From Cypionkella sp. (GTDB taxonomy: Bacteria > Pseudomonadota > Alphaproteobacteria > Rhodobacterales > Rhodobacteraceae), in contig JALOSF010000021.1 of assembly GCA_025458525.1 (NCBI GenBank), positions 25,751-89,750 on the forward strand: DNA of 64,000 nt, written 5' to 3'. The notes beneath the pieces were generated by a model. The model searched no databases. It saw nothing but the letters and a program-made list of their open reading frames with translations, and had not been told where the DNA came from. The translations under genes and the position numbers were made by a program. Shown one piece after another: positions 5,482-64,000 of the stretch (positions are counted from its first letter, which is position 1; every line of letters begins with the position of its first letter).

Positions 5482-6138
5482 GTGATCATGCCGATCACGC
5501 CCCGCCCGACCGACCCGAACGCCGCCGCCCATGAGCGTCTCTATCGCAGCCTGCGCCAGCAGGTGATGCATGGCGAGGTGCCGCCCGGCCAGCCGCTGAC
5601 CTTGCGCGGTCTGGCCAAGGACCATGGCGTGTCGATGACCCCCGCGCGTGAGGCGATCCGCCGTCTGGTGGCCGAGGGCGCGTTGACCATTTCCAGCTCG
5701 GGTCGGGTGTCCACGCCCGAACTTACCCCGGAACGGATCGAGGAGCTGGCCGCGATCCGCGCCCTGCTGGAGCCAGAGATGGCCGCCCGTGCGCTGCCCC
5801 GCGCCCATTTCGCGCTGATCGAACGCTTGGCCGCGATCAACGCCCTGAACGCCGAAGCGGTGCTACGGCAAGATGCCGTCGCCTATGTGCGCACCAACCT
5901 TGAATTCCACCGCACGCTCTATCTTCGGGCGCAGGCCCCTGCGATGTTGGCGATGTGCGAGACGGTCTGGCTGCAACTGGGGCCGACGATGCGCGCGCTT
6001 TATTCGCGCCTGCGCCGCAAGGAACCGCCGCAACACCACCGCATGATCCTTGCCGCGCTCAAGGCGGGGGACGAGCCGGGGTTGCGGCTGGCGGTGCGCA
6101 CAGATGTGACACAGGGGCTGCGTCACCTTGCGGGATAG
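5482..6138 (+). CDS. GntR/FadR-family transcriptional regulator
   Basis: N-terminal wHTH (LYRSLRQQVMHGEVPPGQPLTLRGLAKDHGVSMTPAREAIRRLVAEGAL) and FCD-like C-terminal domain. Confidence 0.9.
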   Translation: MIMPITPRPTDPNAAAHERLYRSLRQQVMHGEVPPGQPLTLRGLAKDHGVSMTPAREAIRRLVAEGALTISSSGRVSTPELTPERIEELAAIRALLEPEMAARALPRAHFALIERLAAINALNAEAVLRQDAVAYVRTNLEFHRTLYLRAQAPAMLAMCETVWLQLGPTMRALYSRLRRKEPPQHHRMILAALKAGDEPGLRLAVRTDVTQGLRHLAG

Positions 6139-15767: not shown

Positions 15768-16961
15768 TTACCCTTTCACCGCTTTGACAATTTTCTGCGC
15801 CGCATCCGACAGGTTGTCTGCTGCGATCACATTCAGGCCGGAGTTGCGGATGATGTCCTTCCCAAGCTCCACATTCGTTCCCTCAAGGCGCACCACCAGC
15901 GGCACCTTCAGCCCGACTTCCTTCACCGCTGCGATCACGCCTTCGGCGATGATGTCGCAGCGCATGATGCCGCCGAAGATGTTCACCAGGATGCCTTTGA
16001 CATTGGGGTCAGAGGTGATGATCTTGAACGCCTCTGTCACCTTTTCTTTCGTGGCGCCGCCGCCCACGTCCAGAAAGTTGGCAGGCTCTGCCCCATAAAG
16101 TTTGATGATGTCCATGGTGGCCATGGCAAGGCCCGCGCCGTTGACCATGCAGCCGATTTCACCATCCAGCGCGATGTAGTTCAGATCGAACTTCGACGCG
16201 GCCAGTTCCTTTGGGTCTTCTTCGGTTTCGTCGCGCAGCGCGGCAATATCGGGGTGGCGATACATCGCGTTGCCGTCAAAGCCCATCTTTGCATCGAGCA
16301 GCTTCATGTTGCCGTCCTTCATGACGACAAGCGGGTTTATTTCCAGCATGTCCATGTCCTTGTCCACGAACAGCCGATAGAGGTTTTTCACGATCGCACA
16401 GCACTGCTTGATCTGGTTGCCCTGCAAGCCAAGACCAAAGGCGACACGGCGGCCATGGTAATCGGAATAGCCCGCCGCCGGATCGATGGTGAAGGAAAGG
16501 ATCTTTTCTGGCGTGTCATGCGCCACATCCTCGATGCTCATCCCACCTTCGGTCGAGCAGACGATGGAAATCCGGCTGCTTGCGCGGTCGATGAGAAGGG
16601 CGAGATAGAGTTCACGCTCGATGTCGCTGCCGTCTTCGATGTAGATGCGGTTGACCTGCTTGCCCGCCTCGCCCGTCTGGACAGTGACCAGCGTGCGGCC
16701 CAGCATCTGGCGCGCAAACTCTGCCGCTTCCTCGACCGAACGGGCCAGACGCACGCCGCCCTTTTCGCCGGCTTCCGGTTCCTTGAAGCTACCCTTGCCG
16801 CGGCCGCCGGCATGGATCTGTGCCTTTACAACCCAAAGCGGGCCGTCCAGCTCTCCGGCTGCGGTCTTGGCGTCCTCGGCCTTCAGGACAACGCGTCCGT
16901 CTGACACAGGAACCCCGTAAGACCGCAAGAGAGCCTTGGCCTGATATTCGTGGATGTTCAT
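15768..16961 (-). CDS. sucC: succinate-CoA ligase beta subunit
   Basis: [19 protein letters not shown]...; 397 aa full length. Confidence 0.97.
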
Positions 16962-17069
16962 CGATCGCGTCCTCTGGGTCGTGAATTTTGGGCTTCATGC
17001 CATGAAAACGGGCAGTAACCAAACGAGTTTGTGCCTGTTAGCGCAAAAGCGCGGTAAAATCTGACCTTT

Positions 17070-17145
17070 GTGATCACGGCCTGAAAATCCGTGATCACGG
17101 CCGCAAATTTTGTGATCACGAGCCTGGATTTCTGGCTGTGATCAC
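17070..17145. promoter_or_regulatory. array of four GTGATCAC palindromes upstream of sucC
   Basis: GTGATCAC at 17070, 17091, 17112 and 17138 (start-to-start spacing 21, 21, 26 bp). Confidence 0.75.
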
Positions 17146-17186: not shown

Positions 17187-17849
17187 TCAGGCCGGTGTGG
17201 CACGGATCAGCACCTGACCGCGCGGCAGCATCACATCGCAAAACTCGGGCTCCCATCCGTGATCCGTGCAGGCCAAATGCAGCTTGTGACGGTCGAAATG
17301 ATAGGGGGGGCGATCGGCATGGGTTACAACGCCATCGGCCTGTCGATAGGCGCCCGGCTGCGCAGGACCAAGGAACACCGTGAAGAACAGCTGCGTCACG
17401 CGGCCAAGACGCGGGCGCATCCGGCCAAGTGCCTGGACCAGCGTGACAAAGGGCAGATGGGTGAACACACCGAAGGCGATCGCATAGTCGATCGCCTCTG
17501 GCACACCGGGCAGGGAAAAATCGCTGTCCTCGATCAGTTGCGCCTCGGGCAGGCGCGCGGGATCTGGCACCTCCAGCTCGCGCCCGCGCAGCATCAGCGC
17601 CCGGCTGGCATCTGTCGCCCAATACTGGCCGGGATGCAGGTAGGGCACGGCCTTGCACCCCAGCCGCAGGCTGCCTGCCCCGATGTCAAGCAGGCGGTGA
17701 TGCGGCAACATGCCCGCGTCGCGCAGGATCTGCATCTGGATGCGCCCGGTTTCATCCCAGCGCCCGCCCACGATGTCGCGGTGACGCCCGTTGGCCAGTG
17801 CGCTGTCGTAAAACCCGGGCGCAAGATAGGGCGACACCGGGGCGGTCAT
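17187..17849 (-). CDS. class I SAM-dependent methyltransferase
   Basis: HHRLLDIGAGSLRLGCKAVPYL (motif I), start MTAPVSPYLAPGFYD. Confidence 0.82.
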   Translation of the reverse strand: MTAPVSPYLAPGFYDSALANGRHRDIVGGRWDETGRIQMQILRDAGMLPHHRLLDIGAGSLRLGCKAVPYLHPGQYWATDASRALMLRGRELEVPDPARLPEAQLIEDSDFSLPGVPEAIDYAIAFGVFTHLPFVTLVQALGRMRPRLGRVTQLFFTVFLGPAQPGAYRQADGVVTHADRPPYHFDRHKLHLACTDHGWEPEFCDVMLPRGQVLIRATPA

Positions 17850-19087
17850 GGGGTCGTCTCGACCGCTTCCTGCACCAGCGCGAGGCAAAGCTCTGTCGCC
17901 AGCGCCATGTCCTGCGCCGACACCCATTCCAGCGGGCCGTGGATGTTCTGCATGCCGGTGAACAGGTTGGGGCAGGGCACGCCCATTTCGGTCAGCCGCG
18001 ACCCGTCGGTGCCGCCCCGGATCGGCACGCTGATCGGCTCTACCCCGATCCGGGCACAGGCGCGGCGGGCCAGATCGACGGGGGTCATGTCCGTTTCCAG
18101 CCAATAGCGCATGTTGCGGTATTGCGGGGTGATGGTGCAGGTGATCTCGGCGCGCGGTTCGGTGGCTTGCACGGCCTCGCACACCCGGCGCAGGATCTCG
18201 CCCTTCTGCGCCAGCCCCTCGCGTTCGAAATCGCGCAGGATGAAATGGATCGTCATCTCGGACGAGCCGCCTGCCATGTCGGTGGCATGGATGAACCCGT
18301 CGCGGCCCGATGTGGTTTCAGGGGTCATCGTGGCTTGCGGCAGCGCCGCGATGATCCTGGAGGCGAGGGTGATGGCGTTCACCATCTTGCCGGTGGCATA
18401 GCCGGGGTGGATGCTGACGCCCTTCACCGTCACAACCGCGCCATCGGCCGAGAAACTTTCATATTCCACCTCGCCCACCGCGCCCCCGTCGAAGGTATAG
18501 GCGAAATCGGCGGCCAGATCGGCGGGCAGCCGCTTGTCCACGCCGCGCCCGATTTCCTCATCAGGGGTAAAGGCGATGCGGATGGGGCCATGGGGGATGG
18601 CGGGGTTGGCAAGCAGATGGCGGGCGGCGGTCATGATGATGGCGACGCCGGCCTTGTCATCGGCGCCCAGCAGGGTGGTGCCGGAGGCGGTGATGATGGT
18701 ATGGCCCTGCTTGGTCGCAAGATAGGGAAACTCGGCCGGCGAGAGCACGAGGCCGGGCGCGTCGGGAAAGGTGATGTCGCCCCCGTTATACCCGTCGATC
18801 ACCCGAGGCTTGACCCCGGTCGCGTTGAACTGGGGGGCGGTATCGACATGGGCGAGAAGGCCGATCGTGAGGCCCGGCGCGGTGCCGGGGATGGTGGCCA
18901 GCACCGTGCCATAGTCGGTCAGCCGCACATCGGCAGCGCCGATCTGGGTCAGCTCATCGGCCAGAAGGCGCAGGATTTGCCACTGCACCTGCGTCGAGGG
19001 GCCGGTTGGCGACGCGGGGTCGCTTTGACTGTCAAGGGCCGCATAGCGGGTCAGGCGGTCGGTCAACTCGGCGGTGAAGGGGGTCAT
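17846..19087 (-). CDS. pepT: peptidase T (tripeptide aminopeptidase)
   Basis: MTPFTAELTDRLTRYAALDSQSD...GLLAHVDTAP...FTPDEEIGRGVDK...GGTDGSRLTEMGVPCPNLFTG. Confidence 0.93.
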   Translation of the reverse strand: MTPFTAELTDRLTRYAALDSQSDPASPTGPSTQVQWQILRLLADELTQIGAADVRLTDYGTVLATIPGTAPGLTIGLLAHVDTAPQFNATGVKPRVIDGYNGGDITFPDAPGLVLSPAEFPYLATKQGHTIITASGTTLLGADDKAGVAIIMTAARHLLANPAIPHGPIRIAFTPDEEIGRGVDKRLPADLAADFAYTFDGGAVGEVEYESFSADGAVVTVKGVSIHPGYATGKMVNAITLASRIIAALPQATMTPETTSGRDGFIHATDMAGGSSEMTIHFILRDFEREGLAQKGEILRRVCEAVQATEPRAEITCTITPQYRNMRYWLETDMTPVDLARRACARIGVEPISVPIRGGTDGSRLTEMGVPCPNLFTGMQNIHGPLEWVSAQDMALATELCLALVQEAVETTP

Positions 19088-24811: not shown

Positions 24812-25576
24812 ATGATGCGTGCGGGTTTTGTGGGGTCTTTTCTGGCTGTTCTTGTGGCTGGCGGCAGCCCTGCGCTGGGCGAGGAGCTTTCGCCAGACGC
24901 TCAGCGATTTGTCGAAGGCAATCTGATCGGCACGTTCTATCACGAGCTGGGTCACGCGCTGATCGATGTGCTGCAACTGCCCGTGCTGGGGCAGGAGGAG
25001 GATGCAGCCGATACCTTGGCGGTCGTCCTCATCACCGATCTGTGGGAAAAGGATGACGCCGAGTGGCTGGGCCGGGCAACGGCGGATTACTACTATTACA
25101 CGGTGGACTGGTCGGGCGCGGCGGCGGATGAAACCGCCTGGTGGGGCGTGCACGGCCCCGACGAGCAGCGCTATTACAACCATGTCTGTCTGCTCTATGG
25201 CAGCGATCCCGAGGGCTTGGCGGATCTTGCGACCGAATATGAACTGCCCGAACAACGGGCCGCGGGCTGTCCGGAGGAATTTACCCTGGCGCAGCAATCC
25301 TGGGGGGTGTTTCTGGATGAGATCACGCTTCAGCCGGGGCAGCGGGCCGAACATGGCTTGATCCTGAAGGCGCCAAAGTCCGCACCCTATTACGACCTTC
25401 TGGCCGAGGAGGTGCGGGTCTGGAACGAGACCTTCACGCTGCCTCGTGACGTGACGGTGCACATCGACGCCTGCGGCGAGGCGAATGCCTACTACTATCC
25501 GGCCGAGTCTTCGATCACGATGTGCAGCGAATATGCCGAATGGCTGATCGCGGTTGCGCAGGCGGCCGAGTTGTGA
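24812..25576 (+). CDS. DUF4344-type exported metallopeptidase-like protein
   Basis: Signal peptide; GTFYHELGHALIDVLQLPVLGQEEDAADTLA (HExxH with downstream acidic residues). Confidence 0.82.
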   Translation: MMRAGFVGSFLAVLVAGGSPALGEELSPDAQRFVEGNLIGTFYHELGHALIDVLQLPVLGQEEDAADTLAVVLITDLWEKDDAEWLGRATADYYYYTVDWSGAAADETAWWGVHGPDEQRYYNHVCLLYGSDPEGLADLATEYELPEQRAAGCPEEFTLAQQSWGVFLDEITLQPGQRAEHGLILKAPKSAPYYDLLAEEVRVWNETFTLPRDVTVHIDACGEANAYYYPAESSITMCSEYAEWLIAVAQAAEL

Positions 25577-25601
25577 TCACGGGCCGAAAATTCGTGATCA
25601 C
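25573..25601. promoter_or_regulatory. two GTGATCAC palindromes upstream of sdhC
   Basis: GTGATCAC at 25573 and 25594 (21 bp apart), same spacing as upstream of sucC. Confidence 0.7.
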
Positions 25602-25767
25602 AAACCGGAAAATTCTGGAAAGTTAGCGGTAAAATGCTGCACCTGCGCCATTGCCGCAGGTGACAGGCCCAAAAAATGCGCTATTCAGAGATGCAATAAT
25701 CGAAGCGCGCCCCGCACTGGCCAACGGTTGACCTGGTCGGGACAAGCCAGCGACGAAGGGAACCGAA

Positions 25768-26154
25768 ATGGGACACGTCAAAAAGGTCGAACGGCCTTTG
25801 TCACCGCATTTGCAGATTTATCGCCCGCAACTGACCTCGATCACGTCGATCCTCACGCGGATCACCGGAAATGCTTTGATTGTCGGGGTGCTTCTGGCGG
25901 TGTGGTGGCTGTTGGCGGCCGCGACCTCGCCCGCGTATTTCGCAACAGCCAATACGGTCGCGACCAGCTGGTTTGGCGATCTGGTCTTTGCCGGATCGGC
26001 CTGGGCGGTGTGGTATCACTATCTTGCCGGGCTGCGGCATCTGTATTTCGACGCGGGCAAGGGTCTGGATGTGCCCACCGCCGAAAAGCTCGGCTGGGGC
26101 ATCATCGGCGGGTCGGTGATCCTGACCGTGATCACAATTCTTCTGGTGCAATAG
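25768..26154 (+). CDS. sdhC: succinate dehydrogenase cytochrome b556 subunit
   Basis: RPLSPHLQIYRPQLTSITSILTRITGN...HYLAGLRHLYFD. Confidence 0.95.
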   Translation: MGHVKKVERPLSPHLQIYRPQLTSITSILTRITGNALIVGVLLAVWWLLAAATSPAYFATANTVATSWFGDLVFAGSAWAVWYHYLAGLRHLYFDAGKGLDVPTAEKLGWGIIGGSVILTVITILLVQ

Positions 26155-63700: not shown

Positions 63701-64000
63701 GATGACCACGGTTTTTGGTCTGTCGCCCCTGCTGTTTGAAACCAGCAGTCAGGCAGAGTTCCTGAAGCCGACGGTGATCACGCTGGTCTACGGGCTTGGC
63801 TTTGGGATGTTCCTTGTTCTGGTGATGGTGCCGGCGCTGATTGCCGTGCAAGGCGATCTTGGCCGGATGGTCCGCGCCATGTCGCGCGGGCTGCGTCAGC
63901 GTCGGCAGAAACGGCCGAGGGCCGCCTTGATCGGCGCGGCGGCGGCGATGGCGGTCTTGTTTGCCGGGCTGATCGGGCCGGTCCTGATCGGCCACAGATC
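60753..64000 (+). CDS. RND efflux permease (AcrB family), 3'-truncated by window edge
   Basis: MAASRRLGRVDGLISYFTRHRTVANLLLVVMIVAG...; open to 64000; NMISLFALIIMLGIVVDDAIVVGE; GMSGIIINDSIVLVSTI. Confidence 0.92.
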   Translation, partial: MAASRRLGRVDGLISYFTRHRTVANLLLVVMIVAGIVAASRIRAQYFPDVIVSEVQVSVAWTGAGAEDVDRAIVQVLEPALLAIDGVEEATSRASEGSARITLEFEPGTDLTRATEDVQAAVESVSNLPEEAEAPEIRRSQWRDQVTDVVITGPVGIDQLGRFADEFVARLFQEGVTRTTIRGLVAPETVVEVPSVALIRHDITLREIATAIGAAVQSTPAGTVGDGSARVRTGTERRSAAQIEGVVLRSLPDGTQLTVGDIGTVTVTAADSGRASFVGENPAMTIRVERNAEGDAIRMQASVEAVAEQLQLTLPPGVTVDLVRARAEEITDRLFLLLDNAISGLALVVVLLFLFLNARTALWVAAGIPVAMFAAVAVMYAAGLTLNMISLFALIIMLGIVVDDAIVVGEHADFRGRKMGEDPVTAAEQGALRMAQPVIASTLTTVIAFFGLVAIGGRFGDLIRDIPFTVIAVLLASLVECFLILPNHMAHAIAAARENRWYDWPSRQVNRGMAWLTRAVIKPVMRLVILARYPVLAAGVLLLASSAALFIRGDLPFRFFNAPEQASVTGNFAMLAGADRSDTMEMMREVQRAADAVAARLAAEHGTNPITFAMAEIGGSAGRGLASAEGKEEDLLGSIQIELISPDARPYSSNVFVSALQEEVRGHPLLEELSFRGGRFGPGGDALSVDLYGPSAEVLKAAAEALKARLAVYPEVSALEDSLAYDKEELILNLTPLGQSLGFVIDDLGRSLRDRLSGIEAASFPDGPRSATIRLQLPKDELTADFLDSTLMRTADGGYVPLADIVTIERRAGFSTILRENGLRVVTVSGDLAEDNPTRAAEIQAILRETILPEVEQQFGVETRQGGLVAQQSAFLSDAGTGAILCLLGIYMCLAWIFASWSRPLVVMSVIPFGLIGAMWGHFHWGVPLSLFSIVGLIGMSGIIINDSIVLVSTIDDYARTRGMFAAIVDGVADRFRAVLLTTMTTVFGLSPLLFETSSQAEFLKPTVITLVYGLGFGMFLVLVMVPALIAVQGDLGRMVRAMSRGLRQRRQKRPRAALIGAAAAMAVLFAGLIGPVLIGHR

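Follow-up and report, generated by a model that had tools for sequence, protein, structure and literature searches.

Two TCA operons in the window (the whole stretch of 64,000 nt analysed here), one headed by sucC and the other by sdhC, are each preceded by a cluster of the octamer GTGATCAC: four copies lie upstream of sucC and two upstream of sdhC (Table 1). All six clustered copies are found exactly where the initial annotation had placed them, and the steps of 21 bp that it described among the first three sucC copies are likewise present. Because sucC is encoded on the minus strand, with its ATG at 16961, the copy at 17070 is the gene-proximal site; of the 30 sucC upstream regions that were inspected, nearly all have a site in the same register. 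The fourth copy begins 26 bp beyond the third and thus falls outside the 21-bp register.

Nine copies of GTGATCAC occur in the window against an expectation of 1.01, a number reached in none of 100 shuffles. Three are solitary (26128, 44466 and 63774); earlier positions for the first two were correct, while the third had been misplaced at 63775. The copy at 26128-26135 falls within the sdhC coding sequence, and an octamer is found in a similar place in four relatives: its recurrence there is probably due to codon constraint. Paired copies are far more restricted. The whole assembly, which is 87% complete and comprises 3.43 Mb in 197 contigs, was scanned for exact pairs separated by 10-16 bp; they were found upstream of sucC and sdhC only, with roughly 0.006-0.05 such pairs expected by chance. 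The initial annotation had named a random genome-wide distribution of paired sites as the outcome that would count against it; the placement found is non-random.

Table 1. Predicted operators, promoter-like elements and genes discussed in the text (window coordinates).
Feature	Position	Strand	Remarks
akgR ortholog, GntR/FCD regulator	5482..6138	+	ATG possibly 5488
sucC, succinyl-CoA synthetase beta subunit	15768..16961	-	heads sucC-sucD-sucA...lpd
GTTT of conserved promoter-like block	17021..17024	-	53 bp downstream of proximal sucC operator start; putative promoter role
Gene-proximal predicted AkgR operator at sucC, GTGATCAC	17070..17077		start -116 from ATG
Second predicted sucC operator, GTGATCAC	17091..17098		-137; 21 bp from first
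Third predicted sucC operator, GTGATCAC	17112..17119		-158; extra copy common to Pseudotabrizicola relatives
Fourth sucC copy, GTGATCAC	17138..17145		-184; 26 bp off, out of 21-bp register
Distal predicted sdhC operator, GTGATCAC	25573..25580		-195 from sdhC ATG
Proximal predicted sdhC operator, GTGATCAC	25594..25601		-174 from sdhC ATG; 21 bp spacing
GTTAGCGGTAAA, possible degenerate CceR (LacI-type) operator	25622..25633		weak
GTGACA, conserved -35-like element	25660..25665	+	66 bp downstream of proximal sdhC operator start; putative promoter role
CTATTCA, -10-like sequence	25681..25687	+	putative
sdhC, succinate dehydrogenase cytochrome b556 subunit	25768..26154	+	start 25768

The tandem pair is a feature of the family as a whole. 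A survey of 298 family genomes, about one per genus, returned an exact GTGATCAC pair in 271, mostly exactly two per genome and, where both are listed, a few kilobases apart; a control pattern had zero matches in the same 298 genomes. Conservation of the paired sites, which the initial annotation had proposed to look for in sister species, therefore reaches far beyond them. Outside the family the pair is rare: a class-wide survey found it in 13 of 387 genomes, and since five of these 13 are family members, 8 of 382 remain. Location was inspected in 20 genera (at 20 kb) and in named relatives, among them Cereibacter, Gemmobacter and Pseudotabrizicola, and is the same throughout – one pair upstream of sucC, one upstream of sdhC – save for two loci: one in which no sucC was found and the pair is upstream of sucA, and another in which sdhC was unrecognised and the pair is upstream of sdhA. 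Spacing is equally constant: of 107 pairs of neighbouring copies, 97 are spaced at 21 bp and nine at 20 bp, the sole 26-bp spacing being that of the window's own fourth sucC copy. Directly after the proximal sucC site there is an A in all instances (53 of 53), which extends the conserved sequence to GTGATCACAAA.

A candidate for the protein that recognizes these sites is encoded 11 kb from the sucC array. The ORF at 5482-6138 matches PF00392 and PF07729 above cut-off, that is, a GntR HTH and an FCD domain, and the FCD gene located beside sdhB in Cereibacter johrii, C. azotoformans and C. changlensis is 82-88% identical to it. The R. sphaeroides regulator RSP_0981, which we take to be the one later named AkgR (Imam et al. 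2015), has a locus number that implies a place beside sdhB; as the Cereibacter ortholog sits there, the window ORF is the AkgR ortholog, an orthology that is assigned by gene neighbourhood in the three Cereibacter species. A network model of R. sphaeroides published in 2015 (PMC4344238) predicts that the GntR protein RSP_0981 regulates RSP_0967-6 (sucCD), RSP_0965-62 and RSP_0974-6 (sdh), with sucAB-lpd included among its targets, and in 2019 GTGATCAC was identified among the binding sites of AkgR, there termed a transcriptional activator (PMC6365646). The operons that carry the arrays here, suc and sdh, match the predicted targets of RSP_0981. Together these data make the GntR/FCD activator AkgR the very probable regulator of the arrays.

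The distribution of AkgR parallels that of the pair. An AkgR ortholog is present in 274 of the 298 family genomes: 267 genera have both regulator and pair, four the pair only, seven AkgR only and 20 neither (Fisher p 1e-21, odds ratio 191, with genera treated as independent and their relatedness ignored). More telling than such relatedness-blind statistics is direct inspection of the exceptions. The four pair-bearing genomes without a detected AkgR are all drafts, 77-93% complete. In two of the AkgR-bearing exceptions sucC is preceded by a pair that has one mismatch, and one of the two (G040) has a second one-mismatch pair at sdhC. In 15 of the 18 AkgR-less genomes inspected, the 400 bp upstream of sucC contain no octamer even when one mismatch is allowed; the other three have a single altered octamer there, at -138, -115 and -138. 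These positions are the canonical ones, which is what sites in decay should show. The upstream positions in AkgR-less genomes were computed with the true window SucC; a SucC-like protein was found in 24 of 27 genomes with a query that matched the window SucC over approximately its first 90 residues. Outside the family, two pairs adjoin genes for AkgR-like GntR proteins. One (L287, pair at 1501-1532, protein 38% identical) lies just upstream of an aldehyde dehydrogenase gene that neighbours the GntR gene; the other (L278, pair at 992-1020, protein 31% identical) lies just upstream of the GntR regulator gene itself, beside a TonB-receptor plug-domain gene.

A further near-constant is the position of the array relative to the promoter-like blocks. 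The -35/-10 and promoter assignments at sucC and sdhC are ones we infer from sequence, but the blocks, located with a leave-one-out weight matrix, keep a nearly fixed distance from the proximal operator: at sdhC it is 65-69 bp (42 of 49 genomes), at sucC 51-55 bp (45 of 53). Six exceptions scoring at least 4 bits are shifted by about +20, +21 and +21 bp (sdhC) and by -20, -10 and +22 bp (sucC), values near multiples of the 10.5-bp helical turn. A simple simulation gives p 0.0002 for these exceptions, which were chosen after the fact; a value with weaker hits added is selective and is given no weight. Shifts by whole turns fit an activator that has to face the polymerase from the same side of the helix.

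We therefore propose that the tandem array of GTGATCAC is the AkgR operator and activates sucCDAB-lpd and sdhCDAB, a reading to which we assign a probability of about 0.88. The octamer, extended to TGTGATCACA, would be the operator of the activator AkgR encoded at 5482-6138, and from what is known of the GntR family each palindrome most likely takes one AkgR dimer. A spacing of 21 bp, two turns of the helix, would place both dimers on one side of the double helix, where – judging from the spacing and from other GntR proteins – they probably bind cooperatively. The array would lie roughly 90-120 bp upstream of the putative transcription start, and activation of both operons may proceed via contact with RNA polymerase, always from the same side of the helix. 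Sites, spacing, conservation, ortholog, co-occurrence and promoter-block distance come from the present analysis; target assignment, octamer identity and activator role are taken from the literature. A broader formulation, for which we judge the odds only slightly better than even, is that an obligatory array of two AkgR dimers, with an invariant 21-bp spacing and tied to the core promoter in whole turns, is the family's ancestral control element for the TCA-cycle steps from succinyl-CoA to fumarate, and that it decays when AkgR is lost.

Control of both operons by one regulator had been suggested in the initial annotation, with CceR and AkgR named as candidates. The literature, gene neighbourhood, co-occurrence and conservation set out above speak for a single regulator and, of the two candidates, for AkgR. 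CceR (GapR, RSP_1663) likewise co-regulates central carbon metabolism in Rhodobacteraceae, with mdh and sdh among its predicted targets, but it belongs to the LacI family and its published motif, [AGT]GTT-N6-8-AAC[ACT], is unlike GTGATCAC: the repeated element does not contain the GTT-N6-8-AAC dyad. Where a GTT-N6-AAC-like dyad does occur it is separate from the octamers. In the window GTTAGCGGTAAA at 25622 fits the CceR motif with one mismatch and begins 28 bp from the start of the proximal sdhC operator; a few of the relatives, a minority, have a CceR-like dyad near sdhC at the same offset (∼+28 from the proximal site). It is conceivable that CceR could act as a second input at sdhC, but we regard binding of the octamers by CceR as extremely improbable.

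There is slightly more room, although still very little, for the octamers belonging to another GntR/FCD regulator, with AkgR acting elsewhere. An example is the L047-type protein, whose gene lies on contig C143: Cereibacter neighbourhoods excluded it as RSP_0981, and it was accordingly kept as a control. Its orthologs are present in 266 of the 298 genera, and their distribution too is associated with that of the pair (258 both, 13 pair only, eight L047 only, 19 neither), and a GT...AC form is common to many GntR operators. However, the odds ratio with the pair is 47 as opposed to 191 for AkgR, and where a genome has one of these regulators but lacks the other, the pair is present in 12 of 13 with AkgR but in four of nine with L047 (p 0.02, strict ortholog threshold). 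Furthermore, no suc or sdh gene lies within the fetched Cereibacter flanks of L047 orthologs, and the literature links GTGATCAC to AkgR. An equally slim chance attaches to the view that AkgR binds the pair mainly as a repressor, or that the operator is dual, rather than activating in a class I-like manner. Many GntR/FCD proteins are repressors, and an upstream position is by itself no proof of activation; the array, however, is situated well upstream of the promoter-like blocks, and AkgR is termed a transcriptional activator in the literature.

The identity of the octamers as the AkgR operator was largely known: AkgR in R. sphaeroides has the same target operons and the same octamer, and its ortholog is encoded in the window. 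The tandem 21-bp array, its family-wide conservation and the promoter phasing are absent from descriptions of AkgR as far as these were checked. What appears to be added here is the tandem architecture and how little it varies within the family, the joint loss of regulator and sites, the fixed distance to the promoter-like block and the whole-turn rule. An operator has also been predicted for PS417_07240, a GntR regulator of the deoxyribonate cluster of Pseudomonas simiae that is 32% identical to AkgR: it too is GTGATCAC, but a single copy is described, which spans -47 to -40 relative to the start codon, and the genes controlled form a catabolic cluster. By sequence the closest solved GntR/FCD structure is McbR (4p9f, E 1e-20), with which AkgR has the GntR-FCD architecture in common; the target genes of McbR differ from those of AkgR. 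A regulator described in one species thus becomes a family-wide rule, with exactly two tandem predicted AkgR arrays, one at sucC and one at sdhC, in nearly every genus. In Rhodobacteraceae from marine and freshwater habitats, AkgR control can be annotated reliably by the sequence of the array, and the combination of 21-bp spacing with whole-turn geometry permits a cheap, direct test of whether a GntR/FCD protein activates from one face of the helix.

A methyltransferase-domain gene (17187-18182) is situated between mdh and sucC; its relatives in the mdh-sucC interval are restricted to some Rhodobacter-clade genomes (five were found), and the same query had no match (E 1e-8) in that interval in 20 other fetched genera. 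At sdhC the stop codon of an upstream ORF encoding a DUF4344 protein (putative metallopeptidase) falls inside the distal operator, and in one relative (L244) the homologous DUF4344 reading frame likewise abuts the distal sdhC operator.
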